DNA of 29,068 nt from a virus, in the IMG/VR virus record IMGVR_UViG_3300032334_001104, positions 1-29,068 of that record. One strand, 5' to 3'. Shown here in pieces: positions 6,232-24,943 of the stretch. Every line of letters starts with the position of its first letter. Position 1 is the stretch's first letter. Position numbers and translations under genes: made by a program. The notes beneath the pieces were generated by a model, which saw only the letters and a list, made by a program, of their open reading frames with translations, was not told the DNA's origin and ran no database searches.

Positions 6232-6243
6232 ATTCTATAAATA

Positions 6244-6894
6244 TTATTGTATTGAAAATAATTTGATATTATTTAATCTAACTTCATCAGTGCTCCTAAT
6301 AAAGAAATCTAACCATAAGTTTGTTGATGTTATACCGCTCATATTTATATAATGATTATAGGTTCCAGGTGTATTTACCCTAGTTACCCTATCATTATAT
6401 TTATATATATCCATCATAAAATCAGCATTATTGGTTACGTTATATTGTAATAAATAAGTTGTGGCTGAAACCGCTTTAATTAATACATTACCTGAAAAAG
6501 TAGTTGCTGTTGTTATAGTTAAACCGGTATAATTAGGTAAACTTTGTGTTGTATATACTTTAGTTAAAGCAGAATATGAATTATTTGTTGTAGTTATACC
6601 ACTAAAATTAGTGTAACTACCACCTGAAATATAAACATTATAACTATAACCGATATTATCCCAAGAAATAATGAATCCTTGAGAACCAGCACCTTTATCA
6701 AAAAAAGTAGATTTCCTTTCAATAAAATTACCTGAATAATCAAAAGAATCCACAACGATATTATTAAATCTAGCTCCTGTTGAAAATGTTCCGCCCGTAA
6801 TAATATTGAATGTATTAGGATAATGAATAGGATTTAAAACATACCCATCAACTCTTTTATCTTTTCTTATATCGCCACTTAAATATATATCCAT
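6244..6894 (-). CDS. Tail structural protein with Fn3-like module
   Basis: 216 residues, beta-rich, no signal peptide. After a short N-terminal segment, residues about 40-125 form an Fn3-like module: IVVDSFDYSGNFIERKS, then IISWDNIGYSYNVYISGG, then TTQSLPNYTG. This block is similar to one in the 393-aa protein (150-240) and one in the 870-aa protein (350-440). The C-terminal part (about 130-216) looks like a second beta-sandwich, possibly carbohydrate-binding-like, ending TDEVRLNNIKLFS. The gene overlaps the preceding 712-aa gene by one base (TAATG), implying coupled translation. Probably a fibre or baseplate decoration subunit. Confidence 0.75.
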   Translation of the reverse strand: MDIYLSGDIRKDKRVDGYVLNPIHYPNTFNIITGGTFSTGARFNNIVVDSFDYSGNFIERKSTFFDKGAGSQGFIISWDNIGYSYNVYISGGSYTNFSGITTTNNSYSALTKVYTTQSLPNYTGLTITTATTFSGNVLIKAVSATTYLLQYNVTNNADFMMDIYKYNDRVTRVNTPGTYNHYINMSGITSTNLWLDFFIRSTDEVRLNNIKLFSIQ

Positions 6895-9032
6895 TATAAT
6901 AAATTATCACTTACATTATTAGAAGTAAATACACTACTTTCATCAATACCTCTTTTATACACATATTTCTGTGTTTGAAGCTTAGTATTTGCAATCTTTT
7001 CACCCACAAAAGATATTGTTGTCGCAGGAACAAATTGTTTAATTAAATTACTCCAATAGTCACCAATACTATCTAAATACTTTAATACGTGTATGTATCT
7101 AAAACCTGTTGTTCCTGTCGCATTTAAATATTCCTCATATACTTTATATAGTGTTGGGTATTGAGATATACCTTTTCTATTTCTTACATTTATAAGTCTA
7201 GAATAAGTTTCATCTAAGAAATGTTGTAACCCTTGTGGGGTTTGATTTAACCATTGACTAAACCAAGTATTACCTGATAAAGTATTATAATAATAGTTAT
7301 ACACATCGTTCTCAATAGGTTTACTTAACTTCAAGTTCAAATCAATAAACTTATTATTTAATATTAATCTTTCGTCATTTGTTTCATAGTTAGCATAACT
7401 TTCATCTACGAAATCAGCCCTTACAACATCTGTTACACCAGATACAAACCAAACTTTTTTATTGTCTATCTCTTGTGTTAATTCAAATCCATAATTTAAA
7501 CCAGGGAAACTTTCAAAGTATTGTTGGTAAGTCGGCATCTGATAATAAAAAGTATCACTATTATCTAATATAAATGGATACCCTTCAGTATCGACAGGTA
7601 TTGTTGTAGTATCAATTATTGTCCCTGTTTGTGCTTCAGTTATACTAATAACCGATTCTAATTCATCAATACTAATCTTACCATCAGCTAAATATACATA
7701 TTCATTAAACTCATATAAACTTTCAGGTGCTCCGATGTATTCTAATATAAACTCAATAGCCTTTCTTGTTCCTTTTGATTTGAAAAGGTAAGCTGAGTTT
7801 AAAAATAATCTCCTCCAAAATTCAATATCTAATTCATACGGAGTTTTATTCTTATTATTCGTTAAAACTTGTGGGGTATTAGTCCCAAATACATTCACTA
7901 ATAAATCATCTGAACTATAAATCGTATCTGCTTTCCAACCAATTGTTTCGGCTAAGTTTTTAATTAAATTATCAGCCGCATTATTTTTCTTATCATAAGT
8001 AACCGTGTTAGCAAAAGCCAATCCATCAATATATTTCTTGATTTCATCAAAACTCCTACCATACACTTGTAACATCTTTTGTATTTTTTGATCTGGAGTG
8101 TCAAAATCTATAATACTATCAGATATATAAAATCTAGCTATTAAATTAGATTTAATTTCATCTATTTCATTACCAATACCAACTAATGTTGTTATATATT
8201 GTTCTAAATAACTTATGTTAATATTTGGATTGTACCCATAAAAATATGTTTCCCAAGTTATTGATGTTGTATCCTCAACTAATGTATCGTCACTATATCT
8301 ACGATAATTAAAAGTTGCGGTATATAACGGAGTAGAATCCCTATTCAATAAAAATTGTTGTATTTCATCAAATTGATTAAAAGCATTTTCCCTTTCTAAA
8401 TAATTTGGTTTAATAAGAATATTTGCCGTTGATGATGAAAATATGTTACCATTTACATTTATAGTTAAGTAACTATCATCAGAAGTTAAACTAACCAATG
8501 GAGTTTCTTCATTCTTATAATCTAACACAAACTTATAATAATATTTAACAAGATTTCTTAAAGTCGTACCAGTAGCACTAGTTTCTAATAACCCATCACT
8601 AGTTAAAGTAATATTATATGGGTTATAAATATAGTTTATTGGTATTTGAAATTGTGTTAAGTTTGTCGCCGAATTATATGTTAAATTATATAGTGTCTGA
8701 TTATAATAAATACCAGCAGGGAAATCACTAATAATACCATTAACCGCAGCTCTTAATCTTTCAGCTAATGAACCATAATTAGCGTAGTTTGTTATATCAG
8801 AATAGTTAAAGTTTATGAATATGTTTAAATTGGTATTATATCCGTTTGTTTGATAGTTATATACCAAAGGATGCCCAGCCATCGGTAACATACCCTGCGA
8901 TGTTTGTAAATTAGTTGTGATAGTGAAATCACCAAAACTAAACAAAGGAGTTCCCTTAGTAGAAGCAAATTGTAACCCTACTAAAGAGTCGCCGAAAACT
9001 GATGATCCATTTCTAAATTGTTTAATTGCCAT
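6894..9032 (-). CDS. Baseplate wedge protein with P2 gpI-like tail domain
   Basis: 712 residues. The central region, about 270-450, is helical and contains ISYLEQYITTL, QKMLQVYGRSFDEIKKYI and the segment FWRRLFLNSAYLFKSKGTRK at 405-424, followed by AIEFILEYIGAPES. The 'R-L-L...L-KSKGT-KA-E-L---G' pattern is the hallmark of P2 gpI-like phage tail proteins (TIGR02242-type), which connect to the baseplate wedge next to gpJ. The flanking regions are beta-rich. Its genomic closeness to gp6-like and gp25-like genes fits a wedge protein, functionally analogous to T4 gp7/gp8/gp53. One-base TAATG overlaps join it to the genes on both sides. I am confident it is a baseplate/tail protein, less so of the precise T4 equivalent. 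Confidence 0.8.
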   Translation of the reverse strand: MAIKQFRNGSSVFGDSLVGLQFASTKGTPLFSFGDFTITTNLQTSQGMLPMAGHPLVYNYQTNGYNTNLNIFINFNYSDITNYANYGSLAERLRAAVNGIISDFPAGIYYNQTLYNLTYNSATNLTQFQIPINYIYNPYNITLTSDGLLETSATGTTLRNLVKYYYKFVLDYKNEETPLVSLTSDDSYLTINVNGNIFSSSTANILIKPNYLERENAFNQFDEIQQFLLNRDSTPLYTATFNYRRYSDDTLVEDTTSITWETYFYGYNPNINISYLEQYITTLVGIGNEIDEIKSNLIARFYISDSIIDFDTPDQKIQKMLQVYGRSFDEIKKYIDGLAFANTVTYDKKNNAADNLIKNLAETIGWKADTIYSSDDLLVNVFGTNTPQVLTNNKNKTPYELDIEFWRRLFLNSAYLFKSKGTRKAIEFILEYIGAPESLYEFNEYVYLADGKISIDELESVISITEAQTGTIIDTTTIPVDTEGYPFILDNSDTFYYQMPTYQQYFESFPGLNYGFELTQEIDNKKVWFVSGVTDVVRADFVDESYANYETNDERLILNNKFIDLNLKLSKPIENDVYNYYYNTLSGNTWFSQWLNQTPQGLQHFLDETYSRLINVRNRKGISQYPTLYKVYEEYLNATGTTGFRYIHVLKYLDSIGDYWSNLIKQFVPATTISFVGEKIANTKLQTQKYVYKRGIDESSVFTSNNVSDNLL

Positions 9033-12277: not shown

Positions 12278-15200
12278 TTAACAAATATCTATGTCATTTA
12301 TTGTTTGTAAAGTACCTAAACCATTACCATAATTATAATTATTATTATGACTTAAACTTCTTCTATTACCTGTAATTGGATTCCAATACTTACTTCTAAA
12401 TGGTAATATAAAATCATTATATACATAGTGTCTACCATTCAAAAATGGAAAATTAGTCCCATTTCCAGATTCATCAATATCACCATTAGGTATTAATTCT
12501 CTCCATTGCCATACATTGATTTTATCATTAAATACCGCCCAACTTTTCTTATCCTCAACATTATTACTACCATATATTGTATTTGTAAAATATTTCAATA
12601 TTACAGGATATAATAAATCTGTTTTAGCATATGTTGATGTTGTAGCTGAAAATGTTGTTGATCCGGTATATCCATATAAATCTTTTAATTTAAATAGATA
12701 ATTTGGCATTTGTAATGTGTATGTACTTAATTCTCTTTCATTATATTCAATAATATCACCATAAATTGAGTCCCCAATATTAATAGAATCGGGAATACTT
12801 ATTTTTGTTTCATAATCACCTAAATAATAAACCACAAAATGTTCAAACATTAAGTCACTAATTTTTACGTTATATGAATCACCGTAATACTGTAATGTAT
12901 ATACGTTAGTATATCCTGTTGTTGGTAAATTACTATAAGTCGTGTTATCAATTATCGCGTATAATCCACCTAATTCATAACCTAAAATAGTGGCACTAGT
13001 TAGTGTATCTGTCGATCCGGTGGCGAAATAAATAATTTCACCAATAGGAAAATCGCTTAATTGATTGTTTATATAAATTATAGATTTACCAGGGTATAAA
13101 GTACTACCCGCAATTTGTGATGAACCATAATCAGTTAAAGTTGGTTTAACACCTAATAATGACAATGTATTACCTGATGTTTCACTAATAGGTTTTTTCA
13201 AATATTCACTAAATAATGAAAAATATCTACGTGAATTATAGTTAAAATCATCCCCTTTTCTATACACTATTGATTGGGTTAGACCTGTCATATTCTCATA
13301 TGATGGGTAAGTATCCATAAACTCAATATAAGTACCTAACCCAAGTTCATTATCGGTATCAAATACAAATGTATCATCACTTAAATAAGTCCCATCCGGA
13401 GTAACACTACCATTTCTATATGTGTTTGTTAAACCTGAAGCCATTAAACCTAAACCATATATACTAGTGTTATGATATGATGAACCACTAATAAAAAAAT
13501 TAGTATTATTAGTTAATAATTCTCTACTTATAAAACCATTCCTAGCACCATAATATTCATCATAAAACTTATTTTTAAGTTTAGTTATTTTTTGAGTTGT
13601 GTTTGATAATATATTTTTCTTTTTAAAGAAATATGATATACTAGTTGTAGGAAAACCATTTTCATCATATAACCCACTAATATCAACTTCACTTTTATTA
13701 GTTAAATAAAAATTATTATTTCCAAAACCATTTTTAGATAAAGGTGTTGTTAATGTATAGTTATCACTACTTTCAATTACTTTATATTTCCTCACATAAT
13801 ATTTAGATAAACTACCACTATCTGTTGGGGTTAAAAACCTTCTAAATTGAAGGTAAGAACCAGTAAATCCTGTTAATTTTATTGTAAATAACTTATCACT
13901 TATACCATTATTTTTAGACCCAATACTCACAACAGGAAATACACCTAAATCATTTTTTGTTGCCCCTGATATTTGTTTTACCTGAACATAATCACCAACA
14001 CTAAGATTATGACTAAAATAAGAATTAAATACAGTATTTGTAGATGAACTTATTTCAAATAAAGTTAAACCTGGATTATATTTAGCGGGTATCCCATCAA
14101 CTATTGTAAATGTATTTGTTAATCCACTTTCAATGATATATAGATTTATTGTATCATCTTTATCATTTGAATACATCGAATATAAGTCCCAATTTTCAGT
14201 ATTATTATTTAAATATTCCAAATATTGTTTTGCCGGAACAACAGAATCATAATAATCGTCATACGATAATAACTTTTGTGTTCTATACTGATACGGTTCT
14301 CTTTCAACTAATTTATAATTAATTAACCCTTTAAAAGTATATGGATTTGTTGAACCCGTTATTACGGTGGTTGGTTGATCAAACGTATATAGATCCGTAC
14401 CCAATGTATTAGACCAACCATAATAATCCCTATAACTCACATTAGGTATTGTACTAGCACTTAATTCATATGAATCGGGCCATATATTTAACCAACAGTA
14501 TTGTTGATAAGCCTTTATTGTTAATGTGTCACCACTAGCCATTGATTGAGGTAAACCCATAAACCCAGCAACTGAATCATACGCATAACTTGTTTTTAAT
14601 AATCCAGTACCACCTTTTTTAGCTGTAACAAAAAATGAGTATGTTTGATACTTAGGTATTTTAACATTCATATTACCTCTAAATGTATATAAATTAGTCC
14701 TTATAACATTAGAATTAGTGAAATCCACTTCAGTTGTTCCTGTTACAAATCTTCCGATATTTATCCATCCCGTTGAAGCACTAACCAATATCGGACTTCC
14801 AGCCGCATTCGTATATCCATTTATTGAGTATGAACCATCTTTTTTAATGTCGGTTGGTAAATACCAATAATCTAATAATTCAGCTGTTTGTTCGGATGAT
14901 ATAGTAGTTAATGGTGAAATATTTGTAATAATAATATCATCATACGGCGCACTTAAACTAAAAATAGCCGATTTAGTTTTATAATATATAGCTTTATTAA
15001 TATCATCTTCTAGTACATTTGTATTTGTAACCACTTTTACTGGGTCATATAATAAATCAATATTACTTAAATATTTATCAAACGAACTTATACCTTGAGC
15101 TATCGAATAAAACTTGTTTGTTGTATTGTTTGTTGGTTTATAGCTCAAATATGAACCATTACCACTATTTTCCACTATTTGAACTGTAACACTACTACTA

Positions 15201-15853
15201 GTAGTTAATGTAACACCACTACTTAAAATATTAACAAAATTAGGTTCAATCGCACCTGATTTAATAAAACTATTTAGTATTTGTTTTTCATATATAACAT
15301 CAGTCCCATTTTTAATATTAATTTTAAGATTAAAAAGGTGTCCAACCGCATCAGTATTTTGTAAATACATACCTAAATCCAAACCAAAAGCATAAACCCC
15401 ATTCTCAGGTGGCGTAAAACTATAAGTTGAGGTATTAAACCCCGCTGGGTTTGAATCCTTAACTATTCTATTAAAAGGTATTGTACGTGCAACACTTAAA
15501 TCAGTATATGTGGTTATACCTGTGATACCAGCAATAAAATTTCTTGGATCGTTTGGGTTATTTGTTGGTTGTTTATTGATATTATAATTTGTATTATAAT
15601 TCTTAAAATAGTTATTAATAAATGGACTATTTAACGCATTACTATAATACATACCATTAATTTTAAGATATGTTCTATATAAATCAGAATCATGTCTTTC
15701 AGATACAAATTGTTCCCCTGAACTAATTGTATAGTTATATAAACCTTCTACCGAATTTTTCGAATCGTTTTCAAGGTTTAATTTAATTTGGATATCTTTA
15801 TCAGGACTTCCAATATATTTTTTATTAGGTAATAATATTTTGTTATTTTCCAT
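12278..15853 (-). CDS. Giant tail/adhesin protein (1191 aa) with C1q-like jelly-roll region
   Basis: The largest protein in the window. Residues about 1-65 form an N-terminal segment (PNKKYIGSPDKDIQIKLNLE) that may anchor it to the tail. Residues about 120-245 look like a C1q/TNF-type jelly roll: ARTIPFNRI, then FNTSTYSFTPPENGVYAFGL and GHLFNLKINIKNG. Another beta-sandwich-like stretch (KIPKYQTYSFFVTAKKG ... GDTLTIKAYQQY) follows around residues 390-460. The rest is a succession of beta-rich, Tyr/Asn/Ser/Thr/Gly-rich segments without enzyme motifs. No signal peptide. The C-terminal region (NGRHYVYNDFILPFRSKYWN) is conserved-looking. It lies between the 902-aa and 382-aa genes with 1-nt gaps. 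Host-binding fibre or large baseplate plate protein is inferred. Confidence 0.8.
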   Translation of the reverse strand: MENNKILLPNKKYIGSPDKDIQIKLNLENDSKNSVEGLYNYTISSGEQFVSERHDSDLYRTYLKINGMYYSNALNSPFINNYFKNYNTNYNINKQPTNNPNDPRNFIAGITGITTYTDLSVARTIPFNRIVKDSNPAGFNTSTYSFTPPENGVYAFGLDLGMYLQNTDAVGHLFNLKINIKNGTDVIYEKQILNSFIKSGAIEPNFVNILSSGVTLTTSSSVTVQIVENSGNGSYLSYKPTNNTTNKFYSIAQGISSFDKYLSNIDLLYDPVKVVTNTNVLEDDINKAIYYKTKSAIFSLSAPYDDIIITNISPLTTISSEQTAELLDYWYLPTDIKKDGSYSINGYTNAAGSPILVSASTGWINIGRFVTGTTEVDFTNSNVIRTNLYTFRGNMNVKIPKYQTYSFFVTAKKGGTGLLKTSYAYDSVAGFMGLPQSMASGDTLTIKAYQQYCWLNIWPDSYELSASTIPNVSYRDYYGWSNTLGTDLYTFDQPTTVITGSTNPYTFKGLINYKLVEREPYQYRTQKLLSYDDYYDSVVPAKQYLEYLNNNTENWDLYSMYSNDKDDTINLYIIESGLTNTFTIVDGIPAKYNPGLTLFEISSSTNTVFNSYFSHNLSVGDYVQVKQISGATKNDLGVFPVVSIGSKNNGISDKLFTIKLTGFTGSYLQFRRFLTPTDSGSLSKYYVRKYKVIESSDNYTLTTPLSKNGFGNNNFYLTNKSEVDISGLYDENGFPTTSISYFFKKKNILSNTTQKITKLKNKFYDEYYGARNGFISRELLTNNTNFFISGSSYHNTSIYGLGLMASGLTNTYRNGSVTPDGTYLSDDTFVFDTDNELGLGTYIEFMDTYPSYENMTGLTQSIVYRKGDDFNYNSRRYFSLFSEYLKKPISETSGNTLSLLGVKPTLTDYGSSQIAGSTLYPGKSIIYINNQLSDFPIGEIIYFATGSTDTLTSATILGYELGGLYAIIDNTTYSNLPTTGYTNVYTLQYYGDSYNVKISDLMFEHFVVYYLGDYETKISIPDSINIGDSIYGDIIEYNERELSTYTLQMPNYLFKLKDLYGYTGSTTFSATTSTYAKTDLLYPVILKYFTNTIYGSNNVEDKKSWAVFNDKINVWQWRELIPNGDIDESGNGTNFPFLNGRHYVYNDFILPFRSKYWNPITGNRRSLSHNNNYNYGNGLGTLQTINDIDIC

Positions 15854-15854
15854 T

Positions 15855-18563
15855 TTAATTTATCTCGTTATATATAAAATCCCTTAATTTCCAATATTGA
15901 TTACAAAAGAAATAATAATTTATTGTCCCATTTTCGTATGGGTTATTCACCTGTGTATGCTCAACAATATTAAACATCTCATCAGTTATAGGATAAAGCA
16001 TTAAATCCATTTCAGTTAATTTAAGTGCATTATACCCATTACTATCCAATACATCTTTAAAAGGTCCAACAGGATAATAAACACTATCATATTTAGTAGC
16101 TTCAAATGTTGGTAAATACATATTACCAATTATTAAAGGAAACAAACTACCTGTGGGTGTATTATAAAAGTTTATATTAACATTTTCTAAACGCATATTT
16201 TTCCTATTTTTTATCGCATCAGTAAAAAACTGGAAATATACTAAATCACCTTCTTGCAGATAAAATTGTTGATCGAAATAAGCATCCCATTTCACACCCC
16301 AATTAGTATTCCCAGCCAATTTTATATAATACGGGTCAAATTTTTTTATTATAATATTTTGATTATTAGAGTACTTCATTATATAGAAAAAATATTCAAC
16401 ATAATAATCACCTTTTGTATAAGCCTTATCTTTAGTATCAATATCACCTATCATTGTAAATGTCCCTCTTATCCTATAATTACCTTTAGATTTAACTTGA
16501 AATACACTATTTGTATAAACACCAGAACCAGGTGAATAATCAGGATGTGCAAGAGGACCCCATACACCAAAATCAGGATTATTAAAACCAATATTAAAAT
16601 CAACCCCAGGGTTGATTTGAGGGTTTCTTCCAGGACTTAAATTTGTGGTTGAGGGTGTTGTATTACCAATATGTCCATTCGGATAAAGTTCAGTATTTAA
16701 AGCAAGAGGATACCAATTTGTAGGTGGGTTTCCACCTAAATAAGGCACCACAGAATCGTCTAATGGTAACTGCTCACCAGGTAAAGCCAAACCTTTCGTT
16801 GTTAAATTAAGTACTAAAGTAGAATTTTCTATTGATTGTTTTGTACTATATAAATTAGGCATTGGGGCATATCTAGATCTTTTTAATGTATCACTATATG
16901 ATATTGTCCCACCACTCAAACCGTTATTTTCAACATTTAATGCCGAATAATAACCATATTTAGTCCATTGACTAGCTATTGTATATATATTACTCCTTCT
17001 ATTTATATAATCCCAATTTAATTCCGCACCATTTCTATATTTTGTACTAGCATTTTCTTTAGGGTATGGATAATAATTAGTATTGATTGGATTATAATAA
17101 CCATTAGGGAATGGTGAGTTAGGATAATATTGAGCGTTATATTTAATATTAAATCTACTTACAGTCGTTAATCCTGTCGATCCATCATAACCTATTTGCT
17201 CTACGAAATTAGCACTATTATTTAAATTAAATCCAATACTAGATGTTCTAGAATAAGTTTTACTATCATTTAAATTAACACTTACATTATTGTTAATATA
17301 TATCATCAAACAATAAGGTGTTCTTGTGAAAATACCGGTTGGGTTCTTACTAAAATCATCATTTGTTTTATACCAATTACCCTCTTCATCTATATTATAT
17401 CTATCCCACTTACAAGGAATAGCAGCATAGAAAGTTCCATCAGGTGCAACATCAGCAGATACATCAGGATCTTCTGTATCCCAACTGTCGGTTAAAAATA
17501 CAACCTTACCACCCATATTTTGTTTAGATGTCGCCAACGCCATATTATTTGAGGTGTATGTTGGCGTAAACGAATTAAATACATTATAATCAGAATAAAA
17601 CGAACCAATAATATAATTACATGGTTGATACCTATAATCCAATTGATAATCATATCTATTTATACCAATTTCACATATATCATTATCACCAAAAAATGAC
17701 TTTACTTGAACATCGGTTCCTCTACTTATTAAAACACCTGCCGTGTTATTAACATCACTACCATTGTTAGGTACTTGTTTTTGTATTACTGATATAGTAT
17801 CACCAGCTTGATTTCTCAAGTTAGATCCACCACCAAAACTACTTGCCGTTGTTCCAGTCGCTACAGTTACAACCGTCCCACCTTCACCTATCTGCGTTAT
17901 ATTACCAAGCGACATTGATTGTCCGACAGTATTACCTGTAACAGGATCACCACCATTAGCATTTAATGGTGAGGCGTTTACTTGTTGATCTTTTTTAAAA
18001 TTTTTCTTATCTTTTTGTCCTGTAGCTAATTGTTGAACAGGTGTTGTACTCAATGAACCAGCGTCAGTACTATCAAAATTCATTATTAATTTACCTTTAC
18101 CTAATGGAATACCCAATATCACATAATCCCCATTTTGATTAGTTGCGCCAACATATTTAAAATATTTTTTATAAACATATTCTAAAGCTGAATTAGCCAT
18201 TACTTCATCTTCACTTGGAAATCCACCAACAGGATAATGATTTTTATTTACTCTATATTTCGGTAATAAAGGATATTTATTACCCATAATATCATTATAT
18301 ATAGAACTTATAGTAATATCATTTTTATCTGTATCATCTAATGGTAAAATGTATCCGATCTTAACATTTTCCATAGGAAAACTATTACTATCAACAATTC
18401 TACCCATTATTACACCCCAATCACTACATGGGTTAGGATACGCATCTGTACCATAAATGCTTAAAGTTAAAATGTCCAAAACATCAAAATCTTGGTCAAG
18501 ATTAAATTTTAAGTATTGATTTTGCTCAGGAAGTATTTTAGTTTTAATTCTATATTTATTCAT
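15855..18563 (-). CDS. Large tail/baseplate protein with carboxypeptidase-regulatory-like domain
   Basis: 902 residues. Residues about 50-75 (VIMGRIVDSNSFPMENVKIG) and about 135-165 (YVGATNQNGDYVILGIPLGK) are the two halves of a carboxypeptidase-regulatory/CnaB-like beta-sandwich (strand, 'P-x-x-x-V-x-I', then 'T-x-x-x-G-x-Y-x-I-x-x-I-P-x-G'). About 65 residues are inserted between the halves. A Gly/Asn/Thr-rich, probably disordered linker (about 170-285) follows, then a beta-rich body. Near residues 690-790 a jelly-roll-like stretch (FQVKSKGNYRIRGTFTMIG ... YLQEGDLVYFQFF) is seen. It is the first gene of the 15-kb minus-strand tail run, divergent from gp25, with TATTTATA 5 nt before its ATG. 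A structural/adhesive role is inferred. Confidence 0.8.
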   Translation of the reverse strand: MNKYRIKTKILPEQNQYLKFNLDQDFDVLDILTLSIYGTDAYPNPCSDWGVIMGRIVDSNSFPMENVKIGYILPLDDTDKNDITISSIYNDIMGNKYPLLPKYRVNKNHYPVGGFPSEDEVMANSALEYVYKKYFKYVGATNQNGDYVILGIPLGKGKLIMNFDSTDAGSLSTTPVQQLATGQKDKKNFKKDQQVNASPLNANGGDPVTGNTVGQSMSLGNITQIGEGGTVVTVATGTTASSFGGGSNLRNQAGDTISVIQKQVPNNGSDVNNTAGVLISRGTDVQVKSFFGDNDICEIGINRYDYQLDYRYQPCNYIIGSFYSDYNVFNSFTPTYTSNNMALATSKQNMGGKVVFLTDSWDTEDPDVSADVAPDGTFYAAIPCKWDRYNIDEEGNWYKTNDDFSKNPTGIFTRTPYCLMIYINNNVSVNLNDSKTYSRTSSIGFNLNNSANFVEQIGYDGSTGLTTVSRFNIKYNAQYYPNSPFPNGYYNPINTNYYPYPKENASTKYRNGAELNWDYINRRSNIYTIASQWTKYGYYSALNVENNGLSGGTISYSDTLKRSRYAPMPNLYSTKQSIENSTLVLNLTTKGLALPGEQLPLDDSVVPYLGGNPPTNWYPLALNTELYPNGHIGNTTPSTTNLSPGRNPQINPGVDFNIGFNNPDFGVWGPLAHPDYSPGSGVYTNSVFQVKSKGNYRIRGTFTMIGDIDTKDKAYTKGDYYVEYFFYIMKYSNNQNIIIKKFDPYYIKLAGNTNWGVKWDAYFDQQFYLQEGDLVYFQFFTDAIKNRKNMRLENVNINFYNTPTGSLFPLIIGNMYLPTFEATKYDSVYYPVGPFKDVLDSNGYNALKLTEMDLMLYPITDEMFNIVEHTQVNNPYENGTINYYFFCNQYWKLRDFIYNEIN

Positions 18564-18617
18564 TTATATATAAATAAAAGAAAATCAAAAAATCTAAAGA
18601 AAACTATTTATTAAAAT
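18564..18617. promoter_or_regulatory. Divergent intergenic region with TATAAATA box
   Basis: This 54-nt AT-rich gap separates the divergent starts of the 902-aa tail gene (minus) and gp25 (plus), so promoters for both directions should be here or just inside the genes. TATAAATA at 18569-18576, identical to the T4 late-promoter box, lies 41 nt before the gp25 ATG on the plus strand. Read on the minus strand it is TATTTATA, 5 nt before the minus ATG. No TTTG -33 element is placed properly for either gene. A late-type promoter is plausible but unproven in such AT-rich DNA. Confidence 0.4.
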
Positions 18618-18992
18618 ATGGCTACTATTGGTATATTTTTTCCATTCACAGAAAGTGATACTGAGTTTGTTAAGCAAACCATAACAACCAACGATGAAAT
18701 ACGTTCATCATTGACACATTTATTATTAACTAATAAAGGTGAAAGATATTATTTACCTGATTTTGGAACAAATCTTAGAAATTTTATTTTTAATCCAAAT
18801 GATAGTACAACCTATGACGCAATGAGGGAAGATGTTAAAACAGCAGTTTCAAAATATTTCCCACAATTACAAATAACAGATATAATAATAAACACAGATC
18901 CAAATAACGAAAGAATAGCTAATCTTCAAATTAAATATATAAATAACGCTTCAATATTTGGTAAGCAAGATACAATTAATATTACACTATAA
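18618..18992 (+). CDS. gp25: Baseplate wedge protein, T4 gp25-like (GPW/gp25 family)
   Basis: 124 residues, close to the 132 of T4 gp25. The family signature is clear: FPFTESD near the start, SLTHLLLTNKGERYYLPDFG at 31-50 then TNLRNFIF, a helix with YDAMREDVKTAVSKYFP, and a closing strand INTDPNNERIANLQIKY. GPW/gp25 proteins hold the baseplate wedge together next to gp6 and contact the first sheath ring; despite the old 'lysozyme' label no catalytic residues are evident. It is directly followed by the gp6-like gene with a one-base TAATG overlap, the usual 25-6 gene order of contractile tails. The start is the first ATG after the divergent gap. Confidence 0.93.
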   Translation: MATIGIFFPFTESDTEFVKQTITTNDEIRSSLTHLLLTNKGERYYLPDFGTNLRNFIFNPNDSTTYDAMREDVKTAVSKYFPQLQITDIIINTDPNNERIANLQIKYINNASIFGKQDTINITL

Positions 18993-20794
18993 TGGCAGAA
19001 AGAAAAATATCATACGCAGAACGTGAATTCACAGGTTTAAGAAATGAACTTATTGGTTATGTTCAAACATATTACCCTGATTTAATTACCAACTTTGGTG
19101 ATGCTGGTTTATTTTCAGTATTATTAGATATCAACGCAGCGGTTGCAGATAACCTTAACTTCCACATCGATAGAAGTATTCAAGAAACCTATTTACAATT
19201 CGCACAACAAACTAATTCAATCTATAACATAGCAAGAACCTATGGATTGAAAATACCTGGTAATAGACCTTCTGTTGCCGTATGTCAATTTAGTATTAAT
19301 GTACCTGTTGATGGTGATAAAGAAGATGTAAATTATTTAGGTATTCTTAAAGCAGGTGCTAAAATTAGTGGTGGAGGACAAGTATTTGAAACTTTAACAG
19401 ATATTGATTTTTCATCTACAATTAATTCAAATGGATACCCTAATAGATTAAAAATCCCTGTATTTGATCCAAATAATAAAGTTGTATCATATCAAATTAT
19501 TAAAACAGAAATTGTCGTTAATGGTGAAACAAGAACATTTAGACAAATTGTAAATACAAATAACGTAAAACCATTTTTTCAAATCATTCTACCTGAAAGA
19601 AATGTATTGTCAGTTAGTTCAATTGTAGTTCAAGATGGAACAACAAATACCACAATACCTGAAGATTCAGTATTTTACGATGATAATCAAAGATGGTTTG
19701 AAGTAGATGCTCTAGCCCAACAAAGCGTGTATATTGAAGATCCCAATTTACCTGTTGTAGATGGGATTAGACAAGGTAAATGGACTAAAATAAATAAAAA
19801 GTTTATTACTGAATATACACCAGAAAACTTTATGATTATTACTTTTGGTGGTTCTGAAACAGATAATGATGCAATTACACAATTCACATTAAATGAATTT
19901 AATATCGATTATAATGAAATAACAAATAACCCTGTTTTAGGTTTAACACCAAAATCAAATACAACAGTATTTGTTAAATATAGAGTAGGTGGAGGACAAC
20001 AATCAATCCTTAACCCTAATACCTTAACAAGAATTACATCAGCTAATTTTGTTGTTAGTGGTCCTAACCCAACAAATAATACAGCAGTAGCAAATTCATT
20101 AAGAGCTACAAATGTTACTTCTTCATTAGGTGGAGCAAATCAACCAACAATCGAAGAAGCTAGAAATTATATTGGATTTAATTTCTCAGCACAAGAAAGA
20201 TGTGTTACTCTTGAAGATTATGAATCACAAATATTTAAAATGCCTGGTAAGTTTGGAGCACCTTCTAAAGTAAGTGTAACAAAAGCAGGTAATAAAATAA
20301 ATGTGAATATATTAACTACCGATGTTAATGGTAATTTAACAAGTGATATTAACTCAAATATAGCTAATAACATCGCATCATATCTTTCACAGTATAGAAT
20401 GATAAATGATTACGTTGTTGTTCAACCAGCACAAGTAGTGAATATTGGTTTTGTTCTTGATGTTCAATATAATAAACAATACCCACCAACCGATTTATCA
20501 TCAACAATTGTTACAAATATATCTAATATTTTTGATAAGTCTAAACTTGCTTTAGGTGATGATGTTTATTTAGGTACAGTTAAAAATGCTATTATGAATA
20601 CACCAGGTGTGTTAAACTTAACTTCACTTAAAGTATATAATAAAGTGGGTGGTAACTACTCACAAAATACATCAGTTCAAACTGTAAACTCAGATGGTGA
20701 AATACAAATAACAGAAGAGATAATACTTGCAGATGATAATCAAATCTTACAAATATTAAACCCTTCTATTGATATTGTAGTTAGATTGAAATAA
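18992..20794 (+). CDS. gp6: Baseplate wedge protein, T4 gp6-like (baseplate J family)
   Basis: 600 residues. The N-terminus has the gp6/gpJ opening: YAEREFTGLRNELIGYVQTY, then NFGDAGLFSVLLDINAAVAD followed by NLNFHIDRSIQETYL and a helix with IYNIARTYGLKIPG. A mid-protein 'SAQERCVTLEDYESQIFKMP' (about 404-423), equivalent to the 'R-A-VT-EDYE' motif of baseplate J proteins, precedes KVSVTKAGNKINV and a C-terminal dimerisation-like domain (VVVQPAQVVNIGFVLDVQYN). gp6 forms the wedge dimer that builds the iris of the baseplate with gp25 and gp53. It is translationally coupled to gp25. Its TAA (20792-20794) abuts the stop of the convergent NTase gene with no gap and no clear terminator. Confidence 0.93.
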   Translation: MAERKISYAEREFTGLRNELIGYVQTYYPDLITNFGDAGLFSVLLDINAAVADNLNFHIDRSIQETYLQFAQQTNSIYNIARTYGLKIPGNRPSVAVCQFSINVPVDGDKEDVNYLGILKAGAKISGGGQVFETLTDIDFSSTINSNGYPNRLKIPVFDPNNKVVSYQIIKTEIVVNGETRTFRQIVNTNNVKPFFQIILPERNVLSVSSIVVQDGTTNTTIPEDSVFYDDNQRWFEVDALAQQSVYIEDPNLPVVDGIRQGKWTKINKKFITEYTPENFMIITFGGSETDNDAITQFTLNEFNIDYNEITNNPVLGLTPKSNTTVFVKYRVGGGQQSILNPNTLTRITSANFVVSGPNPTNNTAVANSLRATNVTSSLGGANQPTIEEARNYIGFNFSAQERCVTLEDYESQIFKMPGKFGAPSKVSVTKAGNKINVNILTTDVNGNLTSDINSNIANNIASYLSQYRMINDYVVVQPAQVVNIGFVLDVQYNKQYPPTDLSSTIVTNISNIFDKSKLALGDDVYLGTVKNAIMNTPGVLNLTSLKVYNKVGGNYSQNTSVQTVNSDGEIQITEEIILADDNQILQILNPSIDIVVRLK

Positions 20795-21970
20795 TTAATA
20801 CATTGTTAATGTAATATCATCTATTTCCTGTTCAGTTACTTTAGATAATAATTTTAAAGCGTCTCTCTGAGATGATTTACTCAAAGTAAAACCTTTCCTA
20901 GTGTATTTAATTATTCTATCAAGTAAGGATGCCGGTGCTTTTAATGTTGGATTAATACGTATTCTTTTACTATTAGCATCACTAAAAAAATTATTATCAT
21001 ATATTAATTTCTTATTCTTCATATCTACACCACACATTACACAGATAAAATCAAATTGTTTAATAATTTCACCAACACCACCAAACTCATATCTGGTTGG
21101 ACTAATAAACTGATATCTCATATTATCAATAGTGTAAGTTATAGCATTAAAAGTAGTATGTTTGCTATTATTCATACTGAAAAAAGTTCTATTATTACCT
21201 CTTATTTTGTCAATATAAAAAGAATCAAATTCATTAATAGCCCTTTTATAATCATCCTCATTTGAAAACCATATATCAAAATCATTGATTTTTTCTTTTT
21301 TAATAACGGATGTTAATGCACCTCCAGCAATTATAGCATTATTATTTTCCAATATATTAATAATTTCTTCTTTAGTGATATGTGAATAAAGAGTAGATAT
21401 AATCTCTAAATTATAATGATCACTAAATACGTCTTTATCCAAGTTAATTAAATCGAATATGTGTGAATGGTAAGACATATCAGCCCTATCCCATATTGTA
21501 ATACTTTTTTCGGTTGATAACTGAACTATAAACTTATTGAATTGGCTACCATATGGTAATTTTTTAGATAATACTAAGAAAAAGACATCACCCTTTTTAG
21601 TGTATCTTTCCCATTGGTTATTGTCATCCGAAGAAATACACCATTTAGTACCTTTACCATATAACTTCATAGTTTCTTCATTGAATACTCTTTTAACTAT
21701 GAAATCATCATTCTCATATATTGTTTGAGAACCATTCTTTTTAATCATTTCTTCTTTATCTGTCTCAGATTCTAAAGTATCTACATAGTAAACGAAATCC
21801 TCAATTGTTTTAAACTTATAAATATCCCTATACTCAACAGGTATTTTATCATTTAATCTTTTATGTTTATCGCACATATAAATAAATGAAGGGTGTAAAT
21901 CACCACCATCGTAAATAGTTTTTAACCACTTCTTATATTTAGGGTCAATTGTTAATGAAAGTATATCCAT
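20795..21970 (-). CDS. TKWC-motif domain fused to nucleotidyltransferase-fold domain
   Basis: 391 residues, two domains. N-terminal part (about 1-165): a helical region then VKRVFNEETMKLYGKGTKWC (93-111 area), ISS, ERYTKKGDVFFLVLSK and a beta strand with FIVQLS; the GTKWCIS motif occurs in uncharacterised phage proteins, function unknown to me. C-terminal part (about 200-390): IIAGGALTSVI (Gly216-Gly217), then INDFDIWF (Asp230, Asp232), and a later KQFDFICV (Asp307), fitting the GG...D-x-D...D triad of polymerase-beta-type nucleotidyltransferases; a helical tail with PASLLDRIIKYTRKGF resembles poly(A)-polymerase/viral NTase relatives. It may therefore transfer nucleotides to RNA or protein. 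It starts 2 nt after a 55-aa ORF and converges on gp6. Confidence 0.8.
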   Translation of the reverse strand: MDILSLTIDPKYKKWLKTIYDGGDLHPSFIYMCDKHKRLNDKIPVEYRDIYKFKTIEDFVYYVDTLESETDKEEMIKKNGSQTIYENDDFIVKRVFNEETMKLYGKGTKWCISSDDNNQWERYTKKGDVFFLVLSKKLPYGSQFNKFIVQLSTEKSITIWDRADMSYHSHIFDLINLDKDVFSDHYNLEIISTLYSHITKEEIINILENNNAIIAGGALTSVIKKEKINDFDIWFSNEDDYKRAINEFDSFYIDKIRGNNRTFFSMNNSKHTTFNAITYTIDNMRYQFISPTRYEFGGVGEIIKQFDFICVMCGVDMKNKKLIYDNNFFSDANSKRIRINPTLKAPASLLDRIIKYTRKGFTLSKSSQRDALKLLSKVTEQEIDDITLTMY

Positions 21971-21972
21971 AA

Positions 21973-22140
21973 TTATTTTTTATTATTAAAGTATAAAGTA
22001 TCGTTAATATTATATTCGGTAGTACTAATTACCGTATATTTTAATGTGTCATTATAAGCGGTGTATTTATAATACCCATTCCTATATTCTTTGGTTTGTA
22101 TGATAAAAAATAAAACCGAGCTAAATATTAATGTTTTCAT
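21973..22140 (-). CDS. 55-aa peptide with hydrophobic N-terminus
   Basis: An ATG at 22138-22140 opens a 55-codon frame ending in TAA at 21973-21975, 2 nt before the NTase ATG. The product begins MKTLIFSSVLFFIIQ, a Lys plus hydrophobic stretch typical of a short signal peptide or membrane anchor, followed by a Tyr/Asn/Thr-rich polar part (YRNGYYKYTAYNDTLKY, ISTTEYNINDTLYF) that looks like a small extracytoplasmic beta segment. No Cys, so not a lipoprotein. A TTTG-N20-TATTCTTA sequence ends 4 nt before the ATG. Spacing suggests co-transcription with the NTase gene. Family not recognised; whether it is translated is unproven, but codon use and the tight junction support it. Confidence 0.6.
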   Translation of the reverse strand: MKTLIFSSVLFFIIQTKEYRNGYYKYTAYNDTLKYTVISTTEYNINDTLYFNNKK

Positions 22141-22144
22141 ATTT

Positions 22145-22176
22145 TAAGAATAATAAAACATACCCAAAAAAACAAA
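22145..22176 (-). promoter_or_regulatory. Possible Bacteroidota-type promoter for the 55-aa peptide/NTase pair
   Basis: On the minus strand TTTG (22173-22176) is followed by a 20-nt spacer and TATTCTTA (22145-22152), then 4 nt and the ATG. The -33 TTTG and the 20-nt spacing fit the Bacteroidota consensus TTTG-N19/20-TAnnTTTG; the -7 box matches it only partly. If used, the transcript would have almost no leader. Confidence 0.35.
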
Positions 22177-22217
22177 TTTATATTTATTAATCTGAAAATC
22201 AATATTTTAAAAATAAA

Positions 22218-22249
22218 TTTGGTAGTCCCAAATAAAGGTATTATATTTG
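22218..22249 (+). promoter_or_regulatory. Bacteroidota-type promoter of the DUF6011 gene
   Basis: TTTG (22218-22221), a 20-nt spacer and TATATTTG (22242-22249) match the Bacteroides consensus TTTG-N19/20-TAnnTTTG at every defined base. The ATG begins at 22253, only 3 nt beyond the -7 box, so initiation at the usual distance would fall at or near the ATG and give a leaderless or nearly leaderless mRNA. This implies transcription by the host primary sigma factor, as expected for an early gene. Confidence 0.65.
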
Positions 22250-22252
22250 TGT

Positions 22253-22663
22253 ATGATTAACCAATTAGAAAACAACGACATAAAAACCTTCATTTTCGCA
22301 GGAAAAGCTATTTTCACGATAACTAATACCAATACAGGTAATCGTTTTACTTATAGAGTTCGTAAAGCTAAAGATAATGATATTTATTTTGTATCAGTTT
22401 TAACTGGTTCCGACAACACAAGTAGCTATTCATTTATAGGCTATATCAAAAAAGGTTTTTTTAATTCAAGTAAAAAATCAAGAATTAGTAGTGAAGCAAC
22501 ATCATTCAAAGTTTTTAGTTGGTTTATTAATAATATTAATAAAATACCTTCAATTGTTCAAGTCCTTCACGAAGGAAGTTGTGGTAGGTGTGGTAGAAAA
22601 CTCACAACACCCGAATCAATTGAAAGAGGTATTGGACCAGAATGTATTAGATTAATGGAATAA
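22253..22663 (+). CDS. DUF6011-containing protein
   Basis: I start at the ATG at 22253-22255 rather than a TTG two codons upstream, because that TTG lies inside the -7 promoter box. The 136-residue product has a variable beta-rich N-terminal domain (FIFAGKAIFTITNTNTGNRF, IYFVSVLTGSD, YSFIGYIKKGF) and a C-terminal zinc-finger-like end with HEGSCGRCGRKLTTPESIER followed by GIGPECI. His, CGRCGR and the late Cys of GPEC are the probable metal ligands. This HEG-CGRCGR-LT-PESI--G-GP-C signature is DUF6011, found in bacteria, phages and large DNA viruses, function unknown. It stands alone between a promoter and a terminator, on the opposite strand to its neighbours. Confidence 0.85.
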   Translation: MINQLENNDIKTFIFAGKAIFTITNTNTGNRFTYRVRKAKDNDIYFVSVLTGSDNTSSYSFIGYIKKGFFNSSKKSRISSEATSFKVFSWFINNINKIPSIVQVLHEGSCGRCGRKLTTPESIERGIGPECIRLME

Positions 22664-22688
22664 AAAAGGTGGGTTTCCCCACCTTTTT
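22663..22688. terminator. Bidirectional rho-independent terminator
   Basis: An 11-bp perfect stem AAAAAGGTGGG / CCCACCTTTTT with the loop TTTC, flanked by A and T tracts, between the convergent DUF6011 (stop 22661-22663) and RNR (stop 22691-22693) genes. It serves both directions. Its core is the same as that of the terminator at 501-526. Confidence 0.88.
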
Positions 22689-22690
22689 AT

Positions 22691-24943
22691 TTAGTTTTTC
22701 ATTGCTTCTAACATTTCAGGACTTATCTCACAAGCCCCACCATAACAACTAGCCGCTCCCATAGTATCCATATCCACGTATTCAGGTTGTTTAATTGCCG
22801 TGTTAAAATCAAAATCCCTTTGTTTTAACTCACGATTAATTCTAACCCATTTGTGATATAAATGTAAATCTTTAAGACATAATACCATTTCTTTAATATC
22901 ACCCTTGAAGAATCTCTTAGCAAATTGTTTAGCTCTTCTAATCCAATCTTTCTTGATTAAACCCTCAACTCTTGTTCCTTGTAATTTCAAATCTCTTTTA
23001 TTTACATAGTCACAAGCTTCCCATAAGTTACCATCAAAAGCATGTAATCCATCAACAATTAAACCTGAAGCGAAGAAAGCCGCATCATCATACTTATTGT
23101 ATAATTCTTCACCTGACAATACTGATGTAAATGGTGCTTGGTTGAAATCTTTATCACCTGTTAATGGTAAGAATGATACCGCTGCGAAGTCATATCTATT
23201 ATTAAACAAATACTCTTCTACCACATCATAATCAGAATAATCCAATTCAACTGTATTAGAAACTGAATGTCTCAAATATGGTTGAACATTTCTTTCGTGA
23301 TTTGTTCCATACTCAACCCAATTGTTTTGGATTGTTTTAACCACTTCTAATTGATTCATACCAACCAAATCTTTCTTGAACTTAGCATTCTTATTAGCCA
23401 TTACTGGAATATATGCTACGTAATCTGTTTTGTTAGCACTCCATACAGATTCTTCAATCAAATAAGGGTGTTCTTCATTTAAGTATTTACCAATACCTGA
23501 TTGTTTGTTGATTTGCATTACCCTGAAATATCTTGGAGCGTGATCTCCGTGACAACCAGAAGGTGATTTCAACAATACTGAAGCGTTTCCTGATGGTTTT
23601 ACACAAGTTGTTCTCGATGCTGCGTTAATACCAATAATTTCAGCCAATTCTTGATTTACCTTTTTAACAATTTCAGCACCTTTTCTTTGGATTTCAGGAT
23701 TCATCATAATATGTGGATTAGCCATCCAACCTGTAAATGAACAACCTAACAAAGCTTCTCTTCTGAAAATTGATTCTGTTATTTCACCTAAGTATGGGAA
23801 ATCAGCATAACCAGCTTGTAATGTTCCTAAGATAGATAAAGCCTCACAAGCTTCATAAAACTTATCTTCAGTTGTACACATACCACCATTACCTTCAGTT
23901 AAGTTACATCCTTGAAAACCACTTAAACCCTCAATTTGTGGATATAAACCAATCTCAACACAAGGATTAGTTACTTGATCCTCATCATCTACAAAGTAGA
24001 AACCTGGTTCACCAAAATCTTTAATTGAAGTGAAAATCCTGTTGAATTGTTCTTTTGTTGTAGTGTTTCTGTTAATCACAGCTGAGTTGTTAGATCTTGC
24101 TCTTTGTGGACTTTCATAATACCAATTACCAACCTTAGCATTCATCATCTCATCATCTTCAGGTGAGAATAAACAAATAGTAGCACTTCTTCTTACACCA
24201 CCTGACAATACCGCATCTGCCATATGCATAATGAAGTCGTAAGCCATAATAGGTCTAATTAGATTAGAACCCTGATTTAAGTTTCTTTCAATTAATTCCT
24301 CACTCTTTAATAATGATTTTCTCAATCCTTCAGGTCCAGGAGCTTTAAATCCACCACTAATCATAGCACCTTCAGGTCTAATTAAACTCAAATCAAATCT
24401 AATTTCGAATCCTTGATACTCAGGGAATGGTGTTTCTTGTCCTTCTTCAACATAAGATGAAATCAAGATACCAAAAGCATCTGCCCATCCTTCAATGTTG
24501 TCAGGAACTACAAATGTTTTTGTCCCCTTTGTTCTTTTAGTGATATTAGGTAATTTGCTAATGTGTTTATATTGAACTGAAAATCCAACACCACAACCAC
24601 ATAATAACAAATACATAATCTCTTGGAAACTTCTTACTCTATTCACGTATGTAGCTGTACAATTGTATAGTCTAGCATTGTGTTTAAGAATTGGTTCTCC
24701 ACCAAATTGTAACGCTCTTTGTGAACCCAATACTAACCTATCTTTATAGGCGTTTTCAGCTTTCTCAAATAATTCATTAAATCTAGGGTTGTCTAAAAAA
24801 TTAGCATACTTTGTTTTATGCATGTTCATAACCCTATTAACCGAATCTTCCCAAGATTCTGTTCTGTTTTCTTCGTCAATCCATCTCGAATAATCTAAAT
24901 AATACTTTAAATCACTCGCTAATTGAAGTCCGTTTTTACTCAT
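22691..24943 (-). CDS. nrdJ: Class II (adenosylcobalamin-dependent) ribonucleoside-triphosphate reductase
   Basis: 750 residues, close to the monomeric 739-residue enzyme of Lactobacillus leichmannii. Key features in order: RLYNCTA with Cys95 (half of the active-site disulfide); FSVQYKHISKLPNI; NPCVEIGL with Cys328 (thiyl-radical Cys) and Glu330; GCNLTE with Cys346 (partner Cys); KPSGNASVLL; PRYFRV; and the C-terminal shuttle pair CYGGAC (Cys733, Cys738). It reduces NTPs to dNTPs with a B12 cofactor, feeding phage DNA synthesis with no second subunit or oxygen need. The Cys328-Cys346 spacing is 18 residues versus about 11 in the Lactobacillus enzyme, so a short insertion lies here. No cobalamin riboswitch is evident in the 159-nt upstream gap. 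Confidence 0.92.
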   Translation of the reverse strand: MSKNGLQLASDLKYYLDYSRWIDEENRTESWEDSVNRVMNMHKTKYANFLDNPRFNELFEKAENAYKDRLVLGSQRALQFGGEPILKHNARLYNCTATYVNRVRSFQEIMYLLLCGCGVGFSVQYKHISKLPNITKRTKGTKTFVVPDNIEGWADAFGILISSYVEEGQETPFPEYQGFEIRFDLSLIRPEGAMISGGFKAPGPEGLRKSLLKSEELIERNLNQGSNLIRPIMAYDFIMHMADAVLSGGVRRSATICLFSPEDDEMMNAKVGNWYYESPQRARSNNSAVINRNTTTKEQFNRIFTSIKDFGEPGFYFVDDEDQVTNPCVEIGLYPQIEGLSGFQGCNLTEGNGGMCTTEDKFYEACEALSILGTLQAGYADFPYLGEITESIFRREALLGCSFTGWMANPHIMMNPEIQRKGAEIVKKVNQELAEIIGINAASRTTCVKPSGNASVLLKSPSGCHGDHAPRYFRVMQINKQSGIGKYLNEEHPYLIEESVWSANKTDYVAYIPVMANKNAKFKKDLVGMNQLEVVKTIQNNWVEYGTNHERNVQPYLRHSVSNTVELDYSDYDVVEEYLFNNRYDFAAVSFLPLTGDKDFNQAPFTSVLSGEELYNKYDDAAFFASGLIVDGLHAFDGNLWEACDYVNKRDLKLQGTRVEGLIKKDWIRRAKQFAKRFFKGDIKEMVLCLKDLHLYHKWVRINRELKQRDFDFNTAIKQPEYVDMDTMGAASCYGGACEISPEMLEAMKN

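Follow-up and report, generated by a model that had tools for sequence, protein, structure and literature searches.

A phage TKWC-domain protein with a predicted class II nucleotidyltransferase head and an altered nucleotide-choice motif

Introduction

Class II nucleotidyltransferases (NTases) are textbook enzymes of tRNA maturation, and the characterised members of the CCA/poly(A) polymerase (CCA/PAP) type act on RNA. In the CCA- and A-adding enzymes, motif D (EDxxR) picks the nucleotide. The closest known enzymes are the CCA- and A-adding members of class II, together with bacterial poly(A) polymerase (PF01743; PDB 4wby, 1vfg, 5hc9, 1miv; E. coli PcnB). In a selection with randomised human CCA enzyme, neither D165 nor R168 of EDxxR could be exchanged for another residue (PMC11784652).

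Two further groups of NTases are relevant. Phages encode NTases of PHROG 4400, 18122 and 1614 (Klebsiella KP13-16, Aeromonas 4L372XY, the crAss-like csAssE-Sib 'polyA polymerase' and Streptococcus 9871), which are standalone or carry other C-terminal extensions; we found no TKWC domain and no characterised member among them. Polyvalent proteins include Pol-beta NTases, minimal MNT/NTox45-like domains of conjugative elements that are predicted to NMPylate proteins (PMC5512222); the main text of that paper mentions neither PcfJ, CCA nor polyA. In jumbo phages, NTases of the RNA-repair cassette kind have been read as RNA repair (PMC7824862).

Here we analyse a protein of tailed phages, TKWC-NTase, in which an N-terminal domain with a TKWC motif is fused to an NTase domain. 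The NTase itself belongs to a known superfamily but has altered motifs, and its TKWC partner is an uncharacterised domain. As far as we could search, the combination has not been described before: like the initial annotation, we found no characterised protein that carries it.

Results

Gene, neighbours and evolution

The window, that is, the whole stretch of DNA analysed, is a 29-kb virus record from IMG/VR (29,068 nucleotides). Its relevant features are as follows.

18618-18992: gp25-like baseplate gene (PHROGs match)
18992-20794, plus strand: gp6-like baseplate wedge gene, convergent neighbour (PHROG 219, 1.9e-13; 91-98% identity in close relatives)
20795-21970, minus strand: TKWC-NTase gene (391-aa ATG ORF; 22 full-length relatives; dN/dS 0.14-0.45)
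20813-21391, minus strand: residues 194-386, predicted head of a class II nucleotidyltransferase with the beginning of the neck (PHROG 4400/18122; Foldseek PDB; hhalign to PcnB)
20927-20941, minus strand: K344-A345-P346-A347-S348, where motif D (EDxxR) would lie, with its templating residues exchanged (alignment with EDPVR of PcnB and DDPLR of a canonical phage paralogue)
21050-21052, minus strand: D307, within QFDF; corresponds to the Asp in RRDFT, the class II motif B, and to D162 of PcnB by alignment (invariant)
21275-21325, minus strand: motif A, G216-G217 ... D230-x-D232 (invariant in 14 relatives and 13 diverse phage NTases)
21401-21970, minus strand: N-terminal TKWC domain, putatively PcfJ-like, residues 1-190 (179 viral-contig stretches; model pLDDT 83; Foldseek BFVD matches)
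21638-21652, minus strand: GTKWC motif, residues 107-111 (Y104 G105 K106 G107, W110 C111 and D164 invariant in 36 TKWC domains)
21973-22140, minus strand: small 55-aa ORF (MKTLIFSSVLFFIIQ...), co-oriented with and directly upstream of TKWC-NTase (absent in relative L028)

The TKWC-NTase ORF runs from an ATG to a stop codon, and GTKWCIS, Gly216-Gly217, Asp230-x-Asp232 and Asp307 all lie where the initial annotation had placed them. The T4-type baseplate genes gp25 and gp6 were identified by PHROGs, and TKWC-NTase is indeed convergent to gp6, stop codon against stop codon. Further right, the minus strand carries genes for a ribonucleotide reductase (RNR; PHROG 367), a DnaB-like helicase (PHROGs) and, read from the sequence, a dUTPase-like protein, all of which share its orientation. 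The 55-aa upstream ORF, which runs in the same direction and has a hydrophobic, signal-peptide-like N-terminus, is shared by the window and five of the six relatives aligned; L028 has a clean deletion of it. A divergent gene on the plus strand (22247-22663; PHROG 20259) encodes a C-terminal zinc-ribbon-like motif, CGRCGRKLTTPESIERGIGPEC. Given that the closest cultured relatives of gp6 are in Flavobacterium immuto phages and similar phages (~27% identity) and that the GC content of the window is 29%, the host is probably a Bacteroidota bacterium.

Full-length homologues (51-97% identity) are encoded at 22 IMG/VR loci, and the two domains are fused in all 22. In each relative checked the gene occupies the same position, convergent to gp6, and it is preceded by the RNR gene wherever the contig extends that far. 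Phages with a 48-50% identical gp6 have another gene after gp6 and no TKWC or NTase gene beside it. The gene is nevertheless not a sporadic insert, being present at the site in every close relative found.

Among the relatives, gp6 is 91-98% identical, compared to 51-97% for TKWC-NTase. For non-trivial pairs with the window, dN of TKWC-NTase is ∼5-9 times that of gp6; its dS is also above that of gp6, and given this, alleles may have been exchanged between relatives. Nearly all comparisons give a dN/dS of 0.14-0.45 for both domains, which, with the 22 homologous loci, argues against a chance reading frame. A dN so far above that of gp6 and yet so low a dN/dS indicate, at the level of sequence, a functional, fast-evolving protein under purifying selection. 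The core of GTKWCIS, GG, DxD and D307 is invariant in 14 aligned relatives, T108 excepted.

The C-terminal domain

PHROGs 4400 and 18122 match the NTase domain at ∼2e-21, and PHROG 1614 ('nucleotidyltransferase') matches at 4e-5. An AF2 model built from 54 sequences has a mean pLDDT of 84.8, with the NTase blocks mostly at 90-98. When this model was compared with the PDB by Foldseek, 36 structures matched at E<=1e-3 (best 1.6e-6), and every one of them is a class II CCA-adding, A-adding or bacterial CCA/poly(A)-type enzyme. A profile of 13 phage NTases aligned with E. coli PcnB by hhalign at P 0.0011 (E 1.1e-3), a match to which HH-suite itself assigns a probability of 20% and which is weak if taken alone; in this alignment GG and DxD are matched, QFDF falls on RRDFT, and the P346 region falls on the motif-D region. 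PF01743 gave a weak match in five of 13 relatives and did not detect TKWC-NTase above the Pfam threshold; with the single window protein as query, nothing in Pfam or NCBIfam exceeded threshold. Sequence searches of the PDB, with the full or the TKWC profile, gave no meaningful match. Together, the profile and model comparisons identify residues ∼194-386 as a predicted nucleotidyltransferase head of the class II CCA/poly(A) type, and bear out the two-domain reading of the initial annotation, with its C-terminal NTase of this kind carrying GG and DxD.

Features in common with the class II CCA/PAP enzymes are the head fold, GG...DxD, the motif-B Asp, the motif-D proline with its helix, and the start of the neck. 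Unlike those enzymes, TKWC-NTase has FDF for RRD, KAPAS for EDxxR, no body or tail, and an extra N-terminal TKWC domain. The motif A pattern, GG-x(9-13)-DxD, is found as G216-G217 and D230/D232 and does not vary among the 14 relatives or among 13 diverse phage NTases. Of motif B (RRDxT), the Asp alone is kept. D307 had been taken for the third Asp of a polymerase-beta-type active site; instead, it aligns with D162 of PcnB, the Asp of the class II motif B RRDFT. Motif D is absent: where PcnB has EDPVR and the phage paralogue DDPLR, TKWC-NTase has K344-A345-P-A-S348. When a canonical class II protein from G009, a related phage, was included (RRDFTLNA, DDPLRLLR), two MAFFT settings gave the same alignment, with P346 on the proline of EDPVR. 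Because P346 falls on this proline and QFDF on RRDFT, D307 corresponds to the motif-B Asp, and EDxxR is now KAPAS.

P346, R352, K355 and G360 are invariant across the 13 diverse phage NTases, including those of PHROG 4400, 18122 and 1614, which have the same NTase domain; judging from this conservation, these residues possibly form an alternative base-recognition site. Position 287, a possible equivalent of the Glu of 'EVATFR' by topology inference only, is Gln in the TKWC-NTase family. The protein stops at residue 391 and has no tRNA-binding body or tail, the model showing two or three helices after the head. The class II head, with GG...DxD retained, is thus predicted to be active, and canonical CCA addition seems unlikely, since motif D and the tRNA-binding body and tail are both missing.

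The TKWC domain

A scan of 2.9 million viral contigs for YGKG[ST]KW returned 201 stretches, 179 of which encode relatives. YGKG, Trp and Cys within KWC, and D164 never vary across 36 diverse TKWC domains. No relatives of the domain or of the full protein were found in 84,980 GTDB bacterial and archaeal genomes, in a search that required a near-exact YGKG[ST]KWC or KYKKWL peptide. A literature search for 'GTKWC' returned unrelated venom peptides only.

The model of the N-domain has a pLDDT of 83. Used alone in a Foldseek search of the PDB, it gave no match at E<=1e-3. In BFVD, it matched TKWC proteins encoded by phages, an ankyrin protein from a Marseillevirus-like virus, a structural protein of phage PA5oct, and phage 'PcfJ like protein' models (E 2.3e-4). 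The Pfam PcfJ family (PF14284) matched four of 24 TKWC domains at E<=1 (best 7.8e-4), one of them scoring 15.2 bits against a cut-off of 25, and was not reported for the window protein in the Pfam scan. The likeness to PcfJ is thus weak in sequence, and the Foldseek matches favour a remote kinship; TKWC domains differ in carrying YGKG[ST]KWC and score under the Pfam cut-off wherever a score is shown. On these profile and model similarities, we read TKWC as a divergent, remotely PcfJ-like viral module. Among proteins of Marseillevirus-like LCMAC viruses, ankyrin-containing and others, a TKWC-like fold is modelled (BFVD entries A0A481Z016 and A0A481YZT2), and exchange of TKWC between phages and giant viruses is possible.

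Partners of TKWC include ankyrin, LRV, HEAT and pentapeptide repeats and ART-PolyVal. One phage protein of polyvalent type (L075 942-7289; 2116 aa) carries at least one TKWC domain, with a second similar stretch, together with ART-PolyVal, GNAT and DUF5662, and it is here that TKWC proteins resemble the polyvalent proteins. TKWC-NTase differs from the latter in having only two domains and an NTase of class II rather than of the minimal MNT/NTox45 type. Eight TKWC domains are encoded in one 98-kb contig of a relative and four in a 109-kb contig. Of these paralogues, up to eight per phage genome, several have (L/I)xEG leaders and some lie within tRNA arrays (L279, L280 = G002; L282 = G001; L285 = G004).

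Leaders of this kind, with an (L/I)xE-G end that we take to be of the T4 prohead-protease type, bear on packaging into the virion. [LI]xEG occurs within the first 40 residues of 14 of 33 non-redundant TKWC proteins, against seven among 254 ORFs taken from those loci as controls, a difference inflated by relatedness inside one TKWC subfamily. In PA5oct, the annotation of one TKWC protein (EST35_0205) reads 'structural protein, ESI-MS/MS'. The copy in the window lacks a leader of this kind: it starts at MDILSLTIDPKYKKW, directly before the TKWC domain, and for this reason we do not claim packaging for it.

tRNA genes and RNA repair in relatives

ARAGORN found tRNA arrays of 27, 24 and 10 genes in three relatives (L267, G001 77000-87500; L268, G004 13500-24000; L269, G003 4500-8500), and TKWC genes are found within these arrays or at their ends. 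When gene ends were set by covariance model, only 10 of 56 tRNA genes passed a loose test for an encoded CCA; all 56 have C at base 74, and most have A at base 75. No tRNA genes were seen in one 98-kb relative that carries the TKWC-NTase gene. A general link between TKWC and tRNA was rejected, as tRNA genes occur in none of 57 diverse TKWC loci and adjacency was observed solely in the window's phage group.

In G009 (L284 2464-5353), a PNK-like P-loop kinase, the canonical class II NTase (RRDFTLNA, DDPLR) and a T4 Rnl1-type RNA ligase are encoded near one another. G007 (L287 1-753), a relative near-identical to the window, has the kinase as well as a copy of the NTase that is truncated by the contig end. 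The tRNA arrays, mostly without encoded CCA, and the cassette of kinase, NTase and ligase suggest that RNA-end metabolism matters to this phage group.

Discussion

What might TKWC-NTase do? We infer an activity, a targeting role for TKWC and an RNA substrate, and give an even chance to the best-supported reading, in which an active NTase, targeted by TKWC, adds nucleotides to RNA 3' ends with a specificity other than CCA. In such a phage accessory enzyme, GG...DxD and the motif-B Asp would hold the NTP from which NMP is transferred. With neither the EDxxR template nor a body and tail to bind tRNA, the enzyme would not build CCA in order, and would probably add one kind of nucleotide, or a few, by way of another recognition surface (R352 and K355, invariant in the 13 phage NTases, are candidates). 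The TKWC/PcfJ-like module would replace the missing substrate-binding part and bring the NTase to its target, most likely RNA 3' ends (tRNA or tRNA fragments, of phage or host) during infection. Several points count against this reading. The phage group already encodes a separate canonical class II NTase in its RNA-repair cassette; the sequence of TKWC-NTase, lacking body, tail and EDxxR, offers no known RNA-recognition feature; neither the 98-kb relative nor any of the 57 diverse TKWC loci has tRNA genes; and Gln287 may, going by topology alone, occupy a carboxylate position.

That motif D and the RNA-binding domains are lost would also suit an effector that modifies proteins, in which the NTase puts AMP, CMP, UMP or GMP on a host or phage protein recognised by TKWC and so silences a defence or another host process. 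Class II membership counts against this, since the characterised members act on RNA, and we regard it as a serious though unlikely alternative. The partners of TKWC are effector-like (ankyrin, LRV, HEAT, pentapeptide, ART-PolyVal with GNAT), and a dN ∼5-9 times that of gp6 is what would be expected of a conflict protein. NMPylation is also predicted for the Pol-beta NTases of polyvalent proteins, although those are minimal MNT/NTox45-like domains and the present one is of the CCA/PAP type (PMC5512222). An effector carried in the capsid, as other TKWC proteins may be, and entering the host with the DNA would overlap in part with the other readings. The leader frequencies and the PA5oct annotation point that way; the window copy has no leader, the leader statistic is inflated by one subfamily, and the gene is co-oriented with those for RNR, helicase and dUTPase, which together make injection improbable.

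The CCA-type fold and the relatives' tRNA arrays, mostly without encoded CCA, might also suggest that the phage finishes its own tRNAs with this protein, acting as a canonical CCA-adding or tRNA-repair enzyme. With no body or tail, a canonical NTase encoded elsewhere in the group, and EDxxR lost, when D165 and R168 are irreplaceable in the human enzyme (PMC11784652), we consider this very improbable. Scarcely more credible is a catalytically dead NTase fold serving as an antitoxin or as a scaffold that binds nucleotides or RNA: motif B is cut to FDF, motif D is lost, and Gln stands at a possible carboxylate position, but even highly divergent phage NTases keep GG, DxD and D307 without exception.

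The reading of TKWC-NTase as a targeted enzyme acting on RNA ends can be set in a wider frame. TKWC could be an undescribed, virus-specific targeting or delivery module of phage (and giant-virus) effectors, up to eight per phage genome, here joined to a class II NTase whose base-recognition site has been rebuilt, the fusion being a tailing effector of a new kind that acts on RNA or protein; we put this forward tentatively, as possible but doubtful. A whole family of phages appears to have dropped the motif for nucleotide choice, kept the catalytic core, and coupled it to a viral module whose partners are effector-like. TKWC-NTase is thus a defined, expressible protein with which to ask what phage NTases add, and to what, and a search for TKWC would lead to a sizeable group of phage effectors that lack annotation, some of them with signs of virion packaging.
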